A DNA stretch of 24,101 nucleotides from positions 1 to 24,101 of the IMG/VR virus record IMGVR_UViG_3300027861_000194; one strand, written 5' to 3'. The notes beneath the pieces are model-generated. The model saw nothing but the letters and a program-made list of their open reading frames with translations. It searched no databases and had not been told where the DNA came from. Made by a program: the position numbers and the translations under genes. Origin of the DNA: a virus. Shown here piece after piece: positions 1,805 through 16,235 of the stretch. Positions within the stretch are counted from its first letter, which is position 1. Each line of letters opens with the position of its first letter.

Positions 1805-2642
1805 TAAAATCTTTCCATTCTAATTCTAATTGACTATTATAACTTATTATCTCTTTATAAGTCTGTCCTTTTTTAAAAGTATTAGGATAATTTAGTTCTT
1901 CTTGTTTACTAAACCATTCCATCTTATTTGAATGCTCATTACTCATTTTATTTAAAAACATTGGCTGCCTATGAAAACAACCAACACAATTATTATAATA
2001 TCCTTTTTCAAATTTAACCTCTTTGTTTTTATTCCAATAATCATTAATAAATCTAGCATCTATTCTATCTTCTATTAATGGGAATTTAGGCTTTCTCCAT
2101 TCAACCATACCCCATTTATTTCGAGTTTTATTTTTGCCTACTATTACTTTAATTTCTTCATTACCTTTATCATTTAATTTTTCAATCATTCTAGCAACTC
2201 TTTTTTCTTCTCCCTTTCTAAAGCCTATTCTCATTTCACAAACTTTATTTATTTCATTTTGCCACCATTCAAAAATAGGCTTCATTTTTAATTCAGTTGT
2301 GCAATATCTAACCATCATATTAGGTAAATAATGTGATCCGTTTTTACCTTTATTCCAATCTCCATTTATTATCTCTTCAAATGGTTTAGCAGTTAGCCAA
2401 GTAATTTCTTTTCCTATATACTGCTCTAACTCTAACATAATAGTAATTATATTATCTTGTTCTAAAGTTCCTATAAAATCAACTCCTATTTTATCACTTA
2501 CTATCTGTCTTATTTTTTTATCTGGATAAATACATTCTTTGTCGTTAGTTCTAACTAAAGAAAAAATATTATAGTCTGCTGGATAATTTTTAGCTATAAA
2601 ACTTGATGTTTTACCTCCACTAATTGAATTAACTGTTATCAT
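1773..2642 (-). CDS. PP-loop ATPase, PAPS reductase family
   Basis: This 289-residue protein begins with a PP-loop, SGGKTSS (about 8-14), the adenylylating P-loop of the ATP pyrophosphatase/PAPS-reductase superfamily. RYCTTELKMKP (C114) and a NCVGCFHR pair (C219, C222) are further conserved features, and the protein ends CDSGYCGL with another Cys. Members reduce PAPS or activate substrates for sulfur or nucleotide chemistry. In phages they are found near DNA-modification genes but their substrate is mostly unknown. Here it follows the methyltransferase and NinG-like genes. A role in DNA or tRNA modification is as plausible as sulfate assimilation. Confidence 0.8.
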   Translation of the reverse strand: MITVNSISGGKTSSFIAKNYPADYNIFSLVRTNDKECIYPDKKIRQIVSDKIGVDFIGTLEQDNIITIMLELEQYIGKEITWLTAKPFEEIINGDWNKGKNGSHYLPNMMVRYCTTELKMKPIFEWWQNEINKVCEMRIGFRKGEEKRVARMIEKLNDKGNEEIKVIVGKNKTRNKWGMVEWRKPKFPLIEDRIDARFINDYWNKNKEVKFEKGYYNNCVGCFHRQPMFLNKMSNEHSNKMEWFSKQEELNYPNTFKKGQTYKEIISYNSQLELEWKDFNDCDSGYCGL

Positions 2643-3028
2643 AGTTCTTTAATCTTTTGTTTATAAATTTCGATTGCTTCCTCATAATCTACTCTATTTA
2701 ATTTTGTTGTTATGTGCATTCTAGACTCTAACTCATCTACTGTACCCTTTCCCCATTTATTCTCTACTCCTCTAGCTGCTTTTATTTGATTGCCATTTAA
2801 AAAGGTATTGCAGTAACTACATTGTGCGTTTACGTTCTTCTCATCGAATCTTATTGAGAGATAACGTCTACTAAATAGATGGCCAGCGTGAGTTGATCCT
2901 CCAAAAGCTGGAGCTTCTTTGCCACAAGAGATACATTTACAATTCCCTTTATAATCAGAATCTCTTAATCTAATATACTCGCTAAATATCTTATCGAGCT
3001 TCTTTTTAAGTTTACTTATTGTTGACAT
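2639..3028 (-). CDS. ninG: NinG/Rap-like recombination nuclease
   Basis: This 129-residue protein fits the lambda NinG (Rap) family, a structure-specific nuclease of recombination intermediates. Seen are KLDKIFSEYIRLRDSD near the N-terminus, a zinc site C32-x2-C35 (CISC), AGHLFSR around H50, LSIRFDEKNVNAQCSYCN (C70, C73) and a C-terminal helix. Lambda NinG is somewhat longer, but this core is complete. It would resolve branched DNA formed in replication or recombination. Overlaps are 17 bases with the methyltransferase and 4 with the next gene. Confidence 0.85.
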   Translation of the reverse strand: MSTISKLKKKLDKIFSEYIRLRDSDYKGNCKCISCGKEAPAFGGSTHAGHLFSRRYLSIRFDEKNVNAQCSYCNTFLNGNQIKAARGVENKWGKGTVDELESRMHITTKLNRVDYEEAIEIYKQKIKEL

Positions 3029-4205
3029 ATATTTTTTTAAATATCTCCATTAATACATTAACAGTTATTGAGTTTCCAGCTTGTTTATATAGTTGAGTAT
3101 CAGAAACATCCTTAACACTAAAAAAGTCCTCATCTTTAAAGCCTTGTAGTCGCCAATATTCTAACGGTGTTAATTTTCTAATTCTATTATTAATTTTTAC
3201 ACCCGCACCAATCTTACCACTTACTAAACAATAACTGTTATTACTTTTGCCAATAATAAATTTACCCCCAAAAGATTCAGAGCTACCTAATTTTACAGGT
3301 GCTGCGTTATATTGTATGCTACTTTCTAAACAAGGCACATCTCCAACTACTTTATCACTTAAATAATATTTATCATCTACTTCTATAGCTTGACTATTAG
3401 CAGTATCTAAACAGTAAGAAGTTCCATCTGTTTTACATAAATGTCCAGTTCCTCCTTTTTTATTATCTCCTTTTCTACCTCCTAAATAATGAGTTCTTAT
3501 TTCATTAGTATTATTTTCTTTATCCTTTTCCTTTAAATTATCATCTATCCTTTTAACTACTTTATCGCTTAAATAATATTTACCATTAGGATTATCTTGT
3601 AATATATCGCCAAGCTTTAACTCTAATGGCATTTCTTTAGGGAAATTAAAATCTCTAAAGTCTTTAAAGCCTACTATAAATATTCTTTCTCTGTTTTGAG
3701 GAATACCATAGTTTTTAGTGTTTAATACTTTCCAATAGATATGATAGCCTAAACCATCTTCAAACATATCTAAACTTATTTGTCCATTTTGAGTACCTCC
3801 TCCATTGCTTAAAATATCTACAATAGTTTGAAATGTTCTTCCTTTATCATGGCTTAATAAACCTTTAACATTTTCTAAAATAAATGTTTTAGGCTGATTC
3901 TCTTTTATAAATTCTGCTACATTAAAAAATAATGTTCCTCTAGTTTCTTCAAAGCCTTTTCTTTTACCAGCCATAGAGAAAGATTGACAAGGAAATCCAG
4001 CAACATATAAATCTAATTGTTCTACTTCTTTATGATTTCTAACAGTAATATCATTATAAAAGGTTTGAGGCTTATGTAATTGCTCAAATGATTGTCTAGC
4101 ATATTTATCTATCTCACAAGCAAAAATAGAATCAAAATCAATTCCTAAATACTTTAAAGCCATTTCTGGAGCTCCTATACCACTAAAATCAGTTCCTATC
4201 TTCAT
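3012..4205 (-). CDS. C5-cytosine DNA methyltransferase
   Basis: This 397-residue enzyme transfers a methyl group from SAM to cytosine C5. Motif I is DFSGIGAPEMAL (about 6-17), with Ala-Pro in place of the usual second Gly. Motif IV is GFPCQSFSMAG, with catalytic C73; motif VI is ENV (111-113); motif VIII is QNRER (170-174). Motif IX-like RKLTPLEYWRLQGF and motif X AGNS (about 376-379) follow. The variable region (about 190-330), likely including target recognition, contains a duplicated KYYLSDKVV segment. No restriction partner is visible, so it probably protects phage DNA from host restriction. It overlaps the NinG-like gene by 17 bases. Confidence 0.92.
   Translation of the reverse strand: MKIGTDFSGIGAPEMALKYLGIDFDSIFACEIDKYARQSFEQLHKPQTFYNDITVRNHKEVEQLDLYVAGFPCQSFSMAGKRKGFEETRGTLFFNVAEFIKENQPKTFILENVKGLLSHDKGRTFQTIVDILSNGGGTQNGQISLDMFEDGLGYHIYWKVLNTKNYGIPQNRERIFIVGFKDFRDFNFPKEMPLELKLGDILQDNPNGKYYLSDKVVKRIDDNLKEKDKENNTNEIRTHYLGGRKGDNKKGGTGHLCKTDGTSYCLDTANSQAIEVDDKYYLSDKVVGDVPCLESSIQYNAAPVKLGSSESFGGKFIIGKSNNSYCLVSGKIGAGVKINNRIRKLTPLEYWRLQGFKDEDFFSVKDVSDTQLYKQAGNSITVNVLMEIFKKIYVNNK
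3345..3586. repeat. Near-perfect 32-bp direct repeat within the methyltransferase gene
   Basis: The stretches 3345-3376 and 3555-3586 are 32 bases long, identical except for two positions, and 210 bases apart. Each encodes a KYYLSDKVV segment in the same frame. They bracket most of the variable region of the methyltransferase, so recombination between them would delete 70 codons in frame. Confidence 0.8.
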
Positions 4206-5893: not shown

Positions 5894-6110
5894 TTCTTAA
5901 ACTATATTTAGAGATTACTGTTTTTCTTCCTAGTCTAGTTTCTACTTGGACTCTTTCATCAGGTATAATAAAACCATCGTTTCTTAGGCAGTAAATATGA
6001 TGACTTAGTCTTGTAATTCCATACTCCATAATAGCATCCCAGCTAGTAAGTGATCCGTATGTTTTTAGATGATTCAATACTTGGTCCTTTTGTGTTAGTT
6101 TTTTAGTCAT
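5880..6110 (-). CDS. Winged helix-turn-helix protein
   Basis: This 76-residue protein fits a small phage HTH family (PF14090-like). Seen are QKDQVLNHLKTYGSLTSWDAIMEYGITRLSHHIYCLRNDGFII (about 7-49), in which ITRLSHHIYCLRNDG is the recognition-helix pattern. A beta wing with RLGRKTVISKYSL follows. It overlaps the DnaA-domain gene by 8 bases and the initiator gene by 14, so it is embedded in the replication block. Roles could be repression, origin binding or helicase loading. Confidence 0.8.
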   Translation of the reverse strand: MTKKLTQKDQVLNHLKTYGSLTSWDAIMEYGITRLSHHIYCLRNDGFIIPDERVQVETRLGRKTVISKYSLRNEVN

Positions 6111-6492
6111 TGTTTTTCTGTATTAGTTCTGTTTCTATTCTTAAATTCTCTGCTTTTAAATAATTTATTTCATCTAAAAGCTCTTCTGTTGTGCTTAAGT
6201 CTAAATTAGATTTAATAAGATTAATAAAATATTCATATCTTTTACGATAAAAAGCATCTACACTAATTAAAGCTCTATTCTGCTTGATGTGATGAATTGC
6301 AGTAGCGTGATCCTGATTAAATATTTTTCCAGTTTCCGAGAAAGTCATCTCTAATAAATCTCTAGCAACATTAAAAACCATTCTACGAGCTTCTACAACT
6401 GACCTAAGCCTTGACTTACTTTCTAGTTGGTCCATAGTTATATGATTAACTATACAAGCAGTTTTTTTAATTTCTTCTATCGTGTTATCCAT
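6103..6492 (-). CDS. Free-standing DnaA domain IV-like DNA-binding protein
   Basis: This 129-residue protein (start ATG 6492; an ATG at 6510 would add six residues) corresponds to only the C-terminal, DnaA-box-binding domain of DnaA (Bac_DnaA_C, PF08299). Residues 26-70 carry KSRLRSVVEARRMVFNVARD, then LLEMTFSETGKIF and the signature NQDHATAIHHIKQ, equivalent to GRDHTTVLHACRK of E. coli. There is no AAA+ ATPase domain. Residues about 103-126 form a Leu/Ile-rich coiled coil that could dimerise it. It may bind DnaA boxes at the phage origin or act as a regulator or competitor of host DnaA. Confidence 0.85.
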   Translation of the reverse strand: MDNTIEEIKKTACIVNHITMDQLESKSRLRSVVEARRMVFNVARDLLEMTFSETGKIFNQDHATAIHHIKQNRALISVDAFYRKRYEYFINLIKSNLDLSTTEELLDEINYLKAENLRIETELIQKNND

Positions 6493-6676
6493 CAAATTCT
6501 TCTTTAACAATATTATAAATTTCTAAATCAATTTCTTTTAATTCTCTTAAAATCTTTCTAGATTCTCTTTTAGCTGCTGCTTTTTGCGTTTTGCTTATAT
6601 CTATTCCAGTAGCTTCATTTATTACTATATGAGACTTTTTAAGAATCTCATTAACCTTATCTTTCTTTTGTTTCAT
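6485..6676 (-). CDS. Small basic hypothetical protein
   Basis: This 63-residue, mostly helical protein begins MKQKKDKVNEILKKSHIVIN. Lys/Arg residues are concentrated in the first 45 residues (KTQKAAAKRESRKILRELKE), and the end is acidic (EEFDG). It lies upstream of the DnaA-domain gene and overlaps it by 8 bases with the preferred start. Composition would allow nucleic acid binding, but no motif supports a specific function. Confidence 0.65.
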   Translation of the reverse strand: MKQKKDKVNEILKKSHIVINEATGIDISKTQKAAAKRESRKILRELKEIDLEIYNIVKEEFDG

Positions 6677-11100: not shown

Positions 11101-13227
11101 TTATAAACTTACATTACCAACCTCATTAACAACTTCTAAACCAGTATCTACTCCAACTGATATAGTTTGCCCTGTGCTATCTAAATTAATTTCGTAATAT
11201 TCTCCGCTCCAAGTATCTTGTTGAGCATTAAACGTACATTGATAAGGAACAAATGAAGATCCATCTATTACAATTCCAAAGTAATAAGGTAATAAAGATT
11301 TATCAGTTATTTTTATTGCTCCATTAAAAGTTCTAGCTCCTACGTTTTGACCTTTTAATATTTGCTCTACTAGTAATTGTGTTATCCTTGTACCAGTTCC
11401 AGCGTTAAAAGCTTTCCAAGTAGGATTAAAATCTTCCCAAGCTGAACTAGTAAAATTATAAACTTCTATTCTTCCTATTCCATTTGGAGAACTACCTACT
11501 AATAAATCTGGAACTTCATAAGTTACGCCAGTAGAAATAGCAGTACCTCCAGGAGCATTAGTTGCTATATAATATTCTAAATTAGAAAGCTCGCCATCTA
11601 CTAAATATTGAACTCCTCCGTTTTCACTATATACTGGAGGAGAATAACAAAGAATGTGATCCGAGTCAGTAGTTCCCTCTACTACTTGAATAGCTGACTC
11701 AGAGCTTAAAGCATCTCCATATAAATTATAATAAATAGCAGCGTAACCATCTAAATATAAATCTCCAGTAAAAGGTAAATTTAAAGTTTCACAATTAATA
11801 TTAAAAGTAAAATTGTTATTTAAGTTATTAGCGTTTAATTCTATTGCTGAACTAAAAGTTAATGAATTTGCGAAATCAACATCGATGTCGTGCCAAGGCT
11901 CAACTGTTCCATTTCTTATAAATGCGTATTTAGTATCACTTGCTCCAACTAGTCTAAATCTTAGCTGTACTTTTATCTGTAAAATATTAGCGTTACCAGT
12001 AGATGGACTAAAAGCATCTAATGCTTGTATCTTAAAATCCCTATTAAATCTTAATGTAGAGTTATCTGTTGCAGTAACACTTCCTAAATTAACACTAAAT
12101 AAATCTGTTTTACTATTATTAATATCATATCCAGTACCACTAAAAGTTAAATTATTATATCTATATCCATTCCACAAAGGAATCTCATTAAAGTTAGGAG
12201 TAAATAATGTACTTGTATCTGAATTATTAGAATATTGTAAAAAAGGTAAATTAAAAGTTTGTAGTCTATCATAATTAGCTCTTACTTCTTTTAATACTGC
12301 TAGATAATCAAAGTCAGCTCCTCCTAATCTTTTATAATTTGTTCCCTCTTGTACTACTGCCGATGTAGAGCCTGAACTATCTGGAGAGCCAGTTGCATCA
12401 TTACCTACATTATAAGTTCTAAAAAAATGAGTATTTCCACTAGTCCAATTATCATAATAATTAACTTGAACAAATACCCAAGAGCCATTAGAGAAGAAAA
12501 CCCTCATTCCAAAAGTTTTACAAATAGAATCTAATAGCTCAAATGTAGTAGCGTATTCTTTTACTCCACTATCTCCTAACTCTACAAAAGCCATAAAATT
12601 AAAACGAGAATAAACTAAAGGATCTCTGTCTGCTTGATGAGTCATCGTATCAGTAGTCCAGTCTACAAATGTTCTCATAAATTTACCAAATGGAGTTGAG
12701 CCACTAAAAAAAGTATCTGTATTTATTTGTAATGTAAAAGCGTTTCTAAAGTATTGTAAACAAGTAAAAGAAGATGGAGTAGTATATCCAACTCCCTCAT
12801 TAAATTTAATATCTTGTAAATTAGATAATCCACAAACTGCCGTTAAACTAAATTCTCTAGGATATGCTACGTCTTGCTCTGGACTAATATCATTTAATAA
12901 ATTACCACACCAGAACAAAGTATAAGTAGAGTCATCATCTGAACGATAAACTCCTATTTGCCATCTACCATAAACACTAGCTTTTATGTCATTTATAAGC
13001 GATTGCTGGGCATTTGATGTAATAAGCATATCAAAGACTAACTCACTAGGAATTAATCCCGTAAATCTATCCTCGTCATCTGTTTGATAAGTTAAGTCGA
13101 AACCTCTAGAACTTAAATCTGGAGAATAATAAGTGTTATCAGTTGCTTCGTTATCGTAAATCTCTAAACGATAATAAACGCTGCTATCACTTGAAAAGCT
13201 TAATTCAAATTTTTTCTCTCTTGCCAT
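11101..13227 (-). CDS. Large tail-tip / minor tail protein
   Basis: This 708-residue, beta-rich, Ser/Thr/Asn/Tyr-rich protein is encoded directly after the tape measure (one-base overlap), where siphoviruses place distal tail and tip/hub components. The N-terminus (KFELSFSSDSSVYYRLEIYD) and segments such as VYGRWQIGVYRSDDDSTYTLFW and FELLDSICKTFGMRVFFSNGSW look like repeated domains of a baseplate hub or receptor-binding structure. No enzymatic motif was recognised. It is the longest gene in the window. The tail-tip role is inferred from position and composition. Confidence 0.75.
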   Translation of the reverse strand: MAREKKFELSFSSDSSVYYRLEIYDNEATDNTYYSPDLSSRGFDLTYQTDDEDRFTGLIPSELVFDMLITSNAQQSLINDIKASVYGRWQIGVYRSDDDSTYTLFWCGNLLNDISPEQDVAYPREFSLTAVCGLSNLQDIKFNEGVGYTTPSSFTCLQYFRNAFTLQINTDTFFSGSTPFGKFMRTFVDWTTDTMTHQADRDPLVYSRFNFMAFVELGDSGVKEYATTFELLDSICKTFGMRVFFSNGSWVFVQVNYYDNWTSGNTHFFRTYNVGNDATGSPDSSGSTSAVVQEGTNYKRLGGADFDYLAVLKEVRANYDRLQTFNLPFLQYSNNSDTSTLFTPNFNEIPLWNGYRYNNLTFSGTGYDINNSKTDLFSVNLGSVTATDNSTLRFNRDFKIQALDAFSPSTGNANILQIKVQLRFRLVGASDTKYAFIRNGTVEPWHDIDVDFANSLTFSSAIELNANNLNNNFTFNINCETLNLPFTGDLYLDGYAAIYYNLYGDALSSESAIQVVEGTTDSDHILCYSPPVYSENGGVQYLVDGELSNLEYYIATNAPGGTAISTGVTYEVPDLLVGSSPNGIGRIEVYNFTSSAWEDFNPTWKAFNAGTGTRITQLLVEQILKGQNVGARTFNGAIKITDKSLLPYYFGIVIDGSSFVPYQCTFNAQQDTWSGEYYEINLDSTGQTISVGVDTGLEVVNEVGNVSL

Positions 13228-15056
13228 TAGTAACCTCTTGTTCTGTTTCTGTTATTTTTAGCTCTATCACTACTTAATAAAATATCTGATCCTTTTATCG
13301 TTCCGAATACTTGAACATTACCGCCTCCACTTTCTCCTATCATTGATTTAAGTTTGTCTAATGGAGCTATAACTTCAGGATTAGACATTGATGTTCCTGG
13401 ACCTTCTCCGACCATTCCGATGGTACTTCCAGTTACTAATCCACCATCTGCAAAAGCTGGAATTAAACTATTAAAAGCAGTCTTTGCTAAACCTCCAGCC
13501 AGTCCAGCAACTACTGGAATTAAAGCTGGATTTAATGCGAATACTGGATTTTTTAAAGCCATAGAAACAGCTGAAGCTACACCCTCTGCAATTAAAGCTC
13601 CGATTGCTGACTTTGCTGCTGACTTTGCTGCTTCTGCAAAACTAGCAAAACTATCAGCTCCAGCCATTAAAACATTACCTAAAGTAACTCCCATTTTTTG
13701 TAACGAAATATCTAACTCCATTACTAAGTCCATTAAAGATATAATACTATTATCTAAATCGTCTGGCATTTTAACACCCTCTAAAGTTTCTGGAAGAGCT
13801 AAAGGATCTTTTCTTTCTTTTCTTGCTATTGGCTTTGTTGTTTCTTTTTTTCCAGAGCCTAATCCTATTCCCTTATTAAATTTATCTATTAAAGGTAATA
13901 CTTTCTGTAATGTGTTTTTTATTGAAGTTCCAAAATCATTAAACTCGTTTTCATATTCTTTAGTTTCAACTTTTAACTCTTCTAATCCATCTTTAATTGA
14001 ATCGAATGGATTACCAAAAGGCTCTTTTCCTAATAAAGTTAATAATTTATTAAACGCTACTACTATAACATTAAATGGATTAATGTCTATAAAAAATTGA
14101 AGCATATCAATAAGAGCATTTTTCCACCAGCTAATATCGCTAAATCGTTCTTTTAATGCTTCCCAGTTATCAGTAATAAATACAATAGCAGCCGCTAAAG
14201 CCGTAACTGCTGCAACAGTTGCTAATACTGGAGCAGAAATTCCAGCTATTGCAATAGCAATACTCCCTAAAACTATTAATAATGGTCCTAATGTAGCAGT
14301 TAATAAAGCTATTCCAATAATCATTTCTTGAGTCTTAGAGTCTAAATTGCTAAAGCCATTGAAAAATACCATTAATTTTTCTCCTAATTTAACTACTATT
14401 GGTATTAATTTTTCTCCTATTTCTTCAAATATATCGCCGAGACGATTCTTCATCTGTATTAATGGACCTAATCCCTCTTTGGATATTGCTTCAGCTTGTC
14501 CACCAAAAGCAGTAGATAAAGCATTAACTGCACTATTTAATCTTTCAACAGTTCCAACTTCTCCCTCTATTTGTATCCCATACCTACTTAAAGCATTAGT
14601 GCTAGATCCAACACTTTTAGCAACTAGTTTAGCTGCATCTCCTAATCCTACACCTTGAGCAGTTGCAAAGTCTTGAATTAATGGAGTAAGTTTTAATATC
14701 GCTGCTTCATTAAGTCCTAGTTGAGCTAGAAACCCTTGAGCTTCCATTGTAGCCTCATCTCCAAATAAAGTAACTTTTTGTAGTTCTTGAGCTTGATTTT
14801 TTAGACTTTTAAAAGCTTCTTCGTTTCCTTTTAATGAAGTTCTTAATTTTGTTTCTGCTTTTATTTGCTCGTCAAAAGCTTTAATAGCTACTGCACCAAA
14901 AGCTATTACTGGCATAGTTAAGCTTCTAGTCATTGTTTGACCAGTTCTTTTCATACTTGAGCCAAACTTTTTAAGTCTTCTAGTAGCTTTTTTTAAACTG
15001 CTCTGGAATTGTTTATCGTTTAAAGATAGTTTTACGCTTAAATTCTTTTCAGCCAT
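13227..15056 (-). CDS. Tape measure protein
   Basis: This 609-residue protein sets tail length and spans the tail lumen. The N-terminus has the recurrent tape-measure pattern FQSSLKKATRRLKKFGSSMKRT, then LTMPVIAFGAVAIKAFDEQ (about 46-64). A long hydrophobic stretch at about 245-295 is rich in Ala, Ile and Leu (IIGIALLTATLGPLLIVLG, then a second run), and another Ala/Gly-rich region lies near 480-550. Such membrane segments are common in tape measures and may insert in the host membrane during DNA delivery. At roughly 0.15 nm per residue the tail would be about 90 nm. The C-terminus ends RNRTRGY. Confidence 0.92.
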   Translation of the reverse strand: MAEKNLSVKLSLNDKQFQSSLKKATRRLKKFGSSMKRTGQTMTRSLTMPVIAFGAVAIKAFDEQIKAETKLRTSLKGNEEAFKSLKNQAQELQKVTLFGDEATMEAQGFLAQLGLNEAAILKLTPLIQDFATAQGVGLGDAAKLVAKSVGSSTNALSRYGIQIEGEVGTVERLNSAVNALSTAFGGQAEAISKEGLGPLIQMKNRLGDIFEEIGEKLIPIVVKLGEKLMVFFNGFSNLDSKTQEMIIGIALLTATLGPLLIVLGSIAIAIAGISAPVLATVAAVTALAAAIVFITDNWEALKERFSDISWWKNALIDMLQFFIDINPFNVIVVAFNKLLTLLGKEPFGNPFDSIKDGLEELKVETKEYENEFNDFGTSIKNTLQKVLPLIDKFNKGIGLGSGKKETTKPIARKERKDPLALPETLEGVKMPDDLDNSIISLMDLVMELDISLQKMGVTLGNVLMAGADSFASFAEAAKSAAKSAIGALIAEGVASAVSMALKNPVFALNPALIPVVAGLAGGLAKTAFNSLIPAFADGGLVTGSTIGMVGEGPGTSMSNPEVIAPLDKLKSMIGESGGGNVQVFGTIKGSDILLSSDRAKNNRNRTRGY

Positions 15057-15336
15057 TTTTTTTATTTATTAAATCGTATTTTTTAGCTATATACTCAGCT
15101 CGCTTTTTTTGTTTCTCAACATCTTTAACCTCTTCTCCTTTTTCCCATTCAAACTTAACTAGTTTTTCTGGAGTTAAATTTTGCCCTTTTTTAGTATGCG
15201 GCTGCAACATTAAACAAGCTAACCATCGTACTCTTTCCCATTCCCTCTTTTCTTTTGATTCTATTACGTCATTACGACCTTTTTGAATTAAAAAAAATTC
15301 GTGAAAAGTTAAATTCCAAAATTCATTAGGTAACAA
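15049..15336 (-). CDS. Tail assembly chaperone, -1 frame extension (gpT-like)
   Basis: This 95-residue reading frame starts with TTG if translated alone, with no nearby ATG. Its frame is open further upstream to 15414, adding 26 residues that end in WDTLESVGYGLG just before LLPNEFWNLTFHEFF. The segment GLGLLPNEFWNLTFHEFF resembles the conserved start of GT-type chaperone C-terminal domains (pattern GxxPxEFWxLTxxE). That conserved context begins before the TTG, so expression as a frameshift fusion with the gene above is more likely than independent initiation. It overlaps the tape measure gene by 8 bases. Confidence 0.8.
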   Translation of the reverse strand: MLPNEFWNLTFHEFFLIQKGRNDVIESKEKREWERVRWLACLMLQPHTKKGQNLTPEKLVKFEWEKGEEVKDVEKQKKRAEYIAKKYDLINKKNG

Positions 15337-15374
15337 TCCAAGCCCATAACCAACAGACTCTAATGTATCCCAAT

Positions 15375-15725
15375 CTATTTCTTTGCCGCTTTCTTCTTCT
15401 TTGCGGCTTTCACGTTTCCCTCGTTTCCAAGTTTAGCACTAAATTGAGTAGAAAACACTTCTAATACTTTATTTAAAGCATCAAAATCTTCATCTAATAA
15501 ATCTGCTACACTTTCAACTGTTAAAGAACATTCTTGTCCACTTACTCTTGATCCGTCCTTAATTCCGTTTAAAATCAAATAACAAGCATCGTCTAAACTC
15601 ATTGACTCTCCTAACTTATCTAAATCACTTAAAGCTCTATCTGTATCTTTACAGAACATTCTTAAAGCATTCATTCCAAATCTTACTGGATAATCCTTTC
15701 CGTTTATTAAAACTATTTCGTACAT
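15375..15725 (-). CDS. Tail assembly chaperone, 0-frame product (gpG-like)
   Basis: This 116-residue protein lies between major tail protein and tape measure, where siphoviruses encode tail assembly chaperones that coat the tape measure during tail growth. Seen are YEIVLINGKDYPVRFGMNAL, DTDRALSDLDKL, a DDACYLILNGIKDGSR helix and a Lys/Ala-rich end. The slippery heptamer GGGAAAC at codons 103-104 would send a fraction of ribosomes into the -1 frame. The fusion would have 225 residues: 104 from this frame and 121 from the next. The short form ends at TAG (15375-15377). Confidence 0.85.
   Translation of the reverse strand: MYEIVLINGKDYPVRFGMNALRMFCKDTDRALSDLDKLGESMSLDDACYLILNGIKDGSRVSGQECSLTVESVADLLDEDFDALNKVLEVFSTQFSAKLGNEGNVKAAKKKKAAKK
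15414..15420 (-). promoter_or_regulatory. Programmed -1 frameshift site GGGAAAC
   Basis: Read on the minus strand in the chaperone 0 frame, this is G_GGA_AAC, a perfect X_XXY_YYZ slippery heptamer that differs from the lambda G/GT site (GGGAAAG) only in the last base. From here the -1 frame is open without a stop to 15049. A-rich codons follow. No obvious strong pseudoknot was found by eye. Confidence 0.75.
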
Positions 15726-15809: not shown

Positions 15810-16235
15810 TTATACTGCGTTCTGAGTTAAGTCTCCTGATCCCTCAATAGATACTGAGTAAGTTGGAGCGTCTTCTGTTCCTCCAGAAATCTCTAGAGAA
15901 GTAATAAAACCACTACCAGTATATGTATAACCAGCTGGAGTAGCTAGAGCAAAAGTAAATGTTACTGCCGTTCTATCTCTAGCTTGAGAAAATAACTCGT
16001 CTACGTCTGTTGTTGTTCCAGCACTTACAAAGTCCATAAGTCCATCAGCACTTAAAGAAAAGCTTTTAGTACCTCCTAAAAGAGTTCTGTTACCTCCTGA
16101 ATCTTTGTTAGTTATGTCGATTGTATCAACATTGTAAGATAAACTTACATTTTGTGAGTGCATTAATTTAAATTGAGTTCCTCCACTTGTAGAGTCTACT
16201 TTTAAAATTAAATCTGTTCCGTTAAAAATTGCCAT
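15810..16235 (-). CDS. Major tail protein, TP901-1-like
   Basis: This 141-residue tail tube subunit has a typical opening, MAIFNGTDLILKVDS, followed by VSLSYNVDTIDITNKDSGG, GTKSFSLSADGLMDF and a closing TYSVSIEGSGDLTQ. This is the pattern of the TP901-1-type phage major tail protein family, which polymerises as hexameric rings around the tape measure. It is the expected gene upstream of the assembly chaperones. Its stop is followed by an 84-base spacer with strong dyad symmetry. Confidence 0.88.
   Translation of the reverse strand: MAIFNGTDLILKVDSTSGGTQFKLMHSQNVSLSYNVDTIDITNKDSGGNRTLLGGTKSFSLSADGLMDFVSAGTTTDVDELFSQARDRTAVTFTFALATPAGYTYTGSGFITSLEISGGTEDAPTYSVSIEGSGDLTQNAV

Follow-up and report, generated by a model that had tools for sequence, protein, structure and literature searches.

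A putative lambda-type programmed -1 ribosomal frameshift with a covarying hairpin in the predicted tail assembly chaperone gene of a probable Bacteroidota phage

The window, i.e. the whole stretch of viral DNA analyzed (24,101 nt; IMG/VR record IMGVR_UViG_3300027861_000194, positions 1 to 24,101), carries on its minus strand, in gene order, a gene for a major tail (tube) protein (15810..16235; PF06199 and phrog_1407), a junction gene with a G-like and a T part, and a tape measure gene (13227..15056; matched in PHROGs by tail length tape measure proteins), the ATG of which overlaps the end of the -1 frame. The 0-frame ORF of the junction gene (15375..15725, minus strand) encodes a putative G-like tail assembly chaperone of 116 residues with 104 distinct relatives, and the -1 frame part of the proposed G-T fusion (15049..15414, minus strand) encodes a further 121 residues followed by a stop. 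As for lambda G/GT, the two overlapping frames have the major tail protein gene on one side and the tape measure gene on the other.

Several other features of the window may be mentioned. A 708-residue protein (11101-13227) encoded after the tape measure gene gave no match in Pfam and PHROGs searches. A tRNA-Ala (TGC) at 413-487, near one contig end, shares 10 bases with the end of an HNH endonuclease gene (478-810), and an Rfam search of the window returned one tRNA and nothing else. A C5 cytosine DNA methylase gene (3012-4205; PF00145) adjoins a NinG homologue (2639-3028; PF05766), and a 135-residue ORF (6103-6510), listed with a TTG start and too short for the ATPase part, encodes a stand-alone DnaA C-terminal DNA-binding domain (PF08299, E 1.7e-13).

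Read from the ATG at 15725, the 0 frame passes in register through ...AAC GAG GGA AAC GTG..., and its codons 102-104 (GAG GGA AAC) contain the slippery heptamer G_GGA_AAC (15414..15420, minus strand), made up of the last base of GAG together with GGA and AAC. The X_XXY_YYZ register claimed in the earlier note that this analysis followed up is thereby borne out, as is the single-base difference from the GGGAAAG of lambda, the heptamer of the window ending in C and that of lambda in G. The -1 frame stays open for 127 codons, 15432 to 15049; its earliest ATG, GTG or TTG is the TTG at 15336, 26 codons past the slip, and its earliest ATG lies 70 codons past the heptamer. A slip at codon 104 would give a fusion of 104 + 121 = 225 residues, of which the 26 between the slip and the TTG would be lost from two separate genes. 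The open frame down to 15049, the lack of an ATG near its start and both of these lengths had been given correctly in the earlier note. In the ORFs of the window X_XXY_YYZ heptamers occur in register at 0.0114 per codon, and GGGAAAC occurs in register once in the window. Taken alone, the heptamer is weak evidence, because the chance of at least one in-register X_XXY_YYZ within the 19-codon overlap is about 20% (p about 0.20).

The same figure is what speaks for reading the site as a heptamer that arose by chance in a gene broken recently, or as a sequencing error, but the relatives make such an origin scarcely conceivable. Scans of viral contigs yielded 104 distinct junctions with the same two-frame layout, drawn from many samples, and the layout is also present in distant phages with other slip sites. 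An in-register heptamer is found together with an open -1 frame in all 104, the heptamer being G_GGA_AAC in 101 and A_AAA_AAG in three, and no relative with a single intact frame was seen. The earlier note had proposed an alignment of related phages and had named relatives without the heptamer or the open segment as contrary evidence; in the relatives the heptamer is either retained or swapped for another canonical one. Among near relatives, 80/80 have GGGAAAC at this codon. The codons GAG, GGA and AAC show zero synonymous variation over 101 sequences, whereas GAG and GAA, and likewise AAC and AAT, interchange at other places in the gene. Synonymous options exist at 71 near-invariant positions; eight of these lack synonymous variation, and three of the eight are the consecutive GAG GGA AAC.

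A predicted stimulatory hairpin, absent from the earlier note, occupies 15385..15407 (minus strand) and consists of GCCGC (15407-15403), a 13-nt loop (15402-15390) and GCGGC (15389-15385), with an energy of -8.7 kcal/mol and a z of -3.5 against dinucleotide shuffles. It is separated from the heptamer by the 6-nt spacer GTGAAA (15408..15413, minus strand), the length of which is constant in all GGGAAAC relatives having the stem. The usual spacer for 3' stimulators of -1 frameshifting is 5-9 nt (PMC5009743), and in this the covarying hairpin at 6 nt agrees with a canonical -1 cassette. The stem was found in 103 of the 104 distinct junctions, with compensatory changes, 6 nt past GGGAAAC and 5 nt past AAAAAAG. 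It takes the forms GCCGC/GCGGC, GCCAC/GTGGC and GCTCC/GGAGC (or GGGGC), with loops mostly of 4, 7, 10 or 13 nt, and GGGAGC/GCTCCC in the A_AAA_AAG relatives (n = 3).

MAFFT misaligned the arms of the hairpin, the loop of which varies in length from 4 to 13 nt, and stem pairs were counted by script and on the letters with the loops cut out. Such counting favours the proposed stem, and controls with slid registers and shuffled sequences therefore matter. Over 12 distinct forms with loops removed, 98.3% of cells were paired and two stem pairs had two-sided changes; the covariation score of these forms was 0.312, where shuffles gave 0.113 and slid registers no more than 0.091. The RNA structure, rather than the residues that it encodes, appears to be under selection, because pairing persists even though the residues encoded at the hairpin, in either frame, change from clade to clade. 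The junction as a whole stands far above chance, since the position of the heptamer is unchanged in those 80/80 near relatives and the hairpin covaries.

A profile search of the 121-residue T part encoded in the -1 frame, as suggested in the earlier note, aligned this segment with Phage_TAC_6 (PF09550) at E 1.4e-4 and 22.6 bits, slightly under the Pfam cut-off of 23.4; the alignment covers profile positions 1-34 of 58 and residues 15-47 of the segment (15280..15378, minus strand). Among 32 aligned relatives, 17 match TAC_6 at E <= 0.1 (best 6.4e-5), and the score of the segment against TIGR02216 was far under the cut-off. For the G protein there was a match to phrog_2115 (tail protein, E 6e-5) but no clear Pfam family, and a tblastn search against annotated phages gave nothing. 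AlphaFold models most of this protein confidently, with disorder from residue 102 onwards, and the slip is thus predicted to fall in a flexible linker. No credible relative came from searching PDB sequences with profiles of G and T, nor from Foldseek with the two AlphaFold models.

If the two frames were separate genes, the second protein would be made by re-initiation once the 0 frame has ended, beginning at the TTG (15334..15336, minus strand), likely to be called as its start, or at a start farther downstream. The TTG is indeed present in the window, and Bacteroidota genes need no Shine-Dalgarno sequence, so that no motif excludes an independent start. Nevertheless, no conserved downstream start codon for the -1 frame exists across the 104 distinct junctions: the first start of that frame ranges from 26 to 116 codons past the heptamer, and the TTG of the window is the first in only 22 of them. 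A TTG start would also remove part of the T domain, as the earlier note had argued, since the conserved residues and a predicted helix (17-26) begin upstream of the TTG (residue 29) and the TAC_6 match begins 14 residues before it, at residue 15. Independent initiation, which would in addition leave the frozen heptamer codons and the covarying hairpin unexplained, is very unlikely, and we judge the TTG, not conserved and inside the conserved domain, to be unused.

A G-like gene joined in the same place to a T segment in the -1 frame was also found in Bacteroidales MAGs (Paludibacteraceae, Alistipes), in the Bacteroides phage Bacuni_F1 and in most of the gut viral contigs examined. In distant Bacteroidales phages and prophage-like loci the slip site, A_AAA_AAA or C_CCA_AAA, usually lies some 10 nt ahead of the stop of the 0 frame, and in the gut group no simple conserved hairpin was evident past it. 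Bacuni_F1, F2 and F4 and the Cellulophaga phage phi39:1 resemble the window in that a small gene and the tape measure gene flank a related T segment. In Bacuni_F1 the T part is in the -1 frame, as in the window, but the slip would occur at an A9 run directly before the stop; in phi39:1 (2083-2809) its frame with respect to the G-like gene is +1/-2, with an A8G run at the junction, in contrast to the -1 frame of the remaining relatives. The G and T parts are annotated as separate hypothetical proteins in the Bacuni_F1 and phi39:1 records, and the annotated start of phi39:1 gp20 lies inside the conserved segment. The two corresponding phi39:1 proteins are without the MS/MS 'structural' label that their neighbours carry, an indirect hint that they may be absent from the virion.

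At the A8-9 junctions of gut Bacteroidales, slippage by the polymerase is also possible. Applied to the window, where RNA polymerase rather than the ribosome would join the frames, an explanation drawn from these A8-A9 runs of distant relatives is still less probable than independent initiation: the window and 101 of the 104 near relatives have only GGGAAAC, without a long homopolymer, and a fixed codon register with a hairpin 5-6 nt away is the mark of a ribosomal site.

We consider programmed -1 ribosomal frameshifting of the lambda G/GT type, giving a 225-residue fusion in a Bacteroidota phage, to be the best explanation, with a probability of roughly 0.93. The G/GT-like frameshift proposed in the earlier note is supported by the conserved heptamer, the covarying hairpin and the lack of a conserved downstream start. 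The majority of ribosomes would read the 0 frame to the TAG and produce the 116-residue G-like protein, and a minority would be held up at G_GGA_AAC by the hairpin 6 nt downstream, slip by -1 through tandem tRNA re-pairing and continue in the -1 frame. The product would be a 225-residue G-T fusion with a Phage_TAC_6-type domain as its C-terminal part. By analogy with lambda, the G part may form a coat on the tape measure protein, with the T part bringing in tail tube subunits, and the best reading is that the unshifted 116-residue product would be in excess, as for gpG over gpGT. That ribosomes shift here in cells, how efficiently they do so, and the role as a chaperone are inferences. In another phage tail chaperone cluster, two genes tested showed 6% and 7% shifting (PMC3711429). 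One point against concerns efficiency in the real host: the heptamer ends in AAC, and A_AAA_AAC shifts far less readily in E. coli than A_AAA_AAG does (PMC5009743). The TAC_6 score under the cut-off, and the G part with neither a clear Pfam family nor a structural match, likewise count against this reading.

The likeness to lambda gpG/gpGT (G_GGA_AAG) rests on layout and slip site, and not on homology of G or T: the position in the gene order, the -1 direction, the heptamer class and the pairing of a short G-like protein with an extended fusion are shared, and the short, strongly covarying hairpin after the slip site sets the window apart. The G-T frameshift is reportedly conserved in long-tailed dsDNA phages, according to Xu, Hendrix and Duda in 2004. 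Both the lambda case and this conservation are reviewed in PMC5009743, where the g-t frameshift site of the haloarchaeal virus HCTV-1 is listed as G_GGA_AAC. HCTV-1 shares with the window an identical heptamer in a gene of the same kind, but its host is archaeal. The Phage_TAC_6/rcc01693 family (PF09550, TIGR02216) aligns with the -1 segment, which differs from it in forming the C-terminal part of a frameshift fusion. The host of the source phage is most likely a member of the Bacteroidota, because the wider relatives are Bacteroidales MAG loci, Bacuni_F1 and phi39:1, and the phage itself is probably a tailed, marine flavobacterial siphovirus.

In the literature searched, which covered few subscription journals, no earlier description of tail chaperone frameshifting in Bacteroides or flavobacterial phages was found. 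The mechanism is already well known in phages, and the evolutionary evidence here is unusually clear. The reading offered corrects a likely gene-caller error, in which two genes are called, 26 residues missed and the domain truncated. It also brings a large group of Bacteroidota phages, with their textbook slip site and covarying hairpin, into the best-known case of recoding by phages. It is possible, though we hold this view only tentatively, that Bacteroidota phages have kept an old G/T junction and swapped its slip site several times, among G_GGA_AAC with a hairpin, A_AAA_AAG with a hairpin, A8-9 or C_CCA_AAA before the stop, and the +1/-2 arrangement of phi39:1. Such natural exchange among relatives provides a ready set for testing heptamers on Bacteroidota ribosomes. 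If this view is true, the preference of the marine clade for AAC, a weak slip codon in E. coli, would indicate host-specific slipperiness of tRNA(Asn) on Bacteroidota ribosomes.
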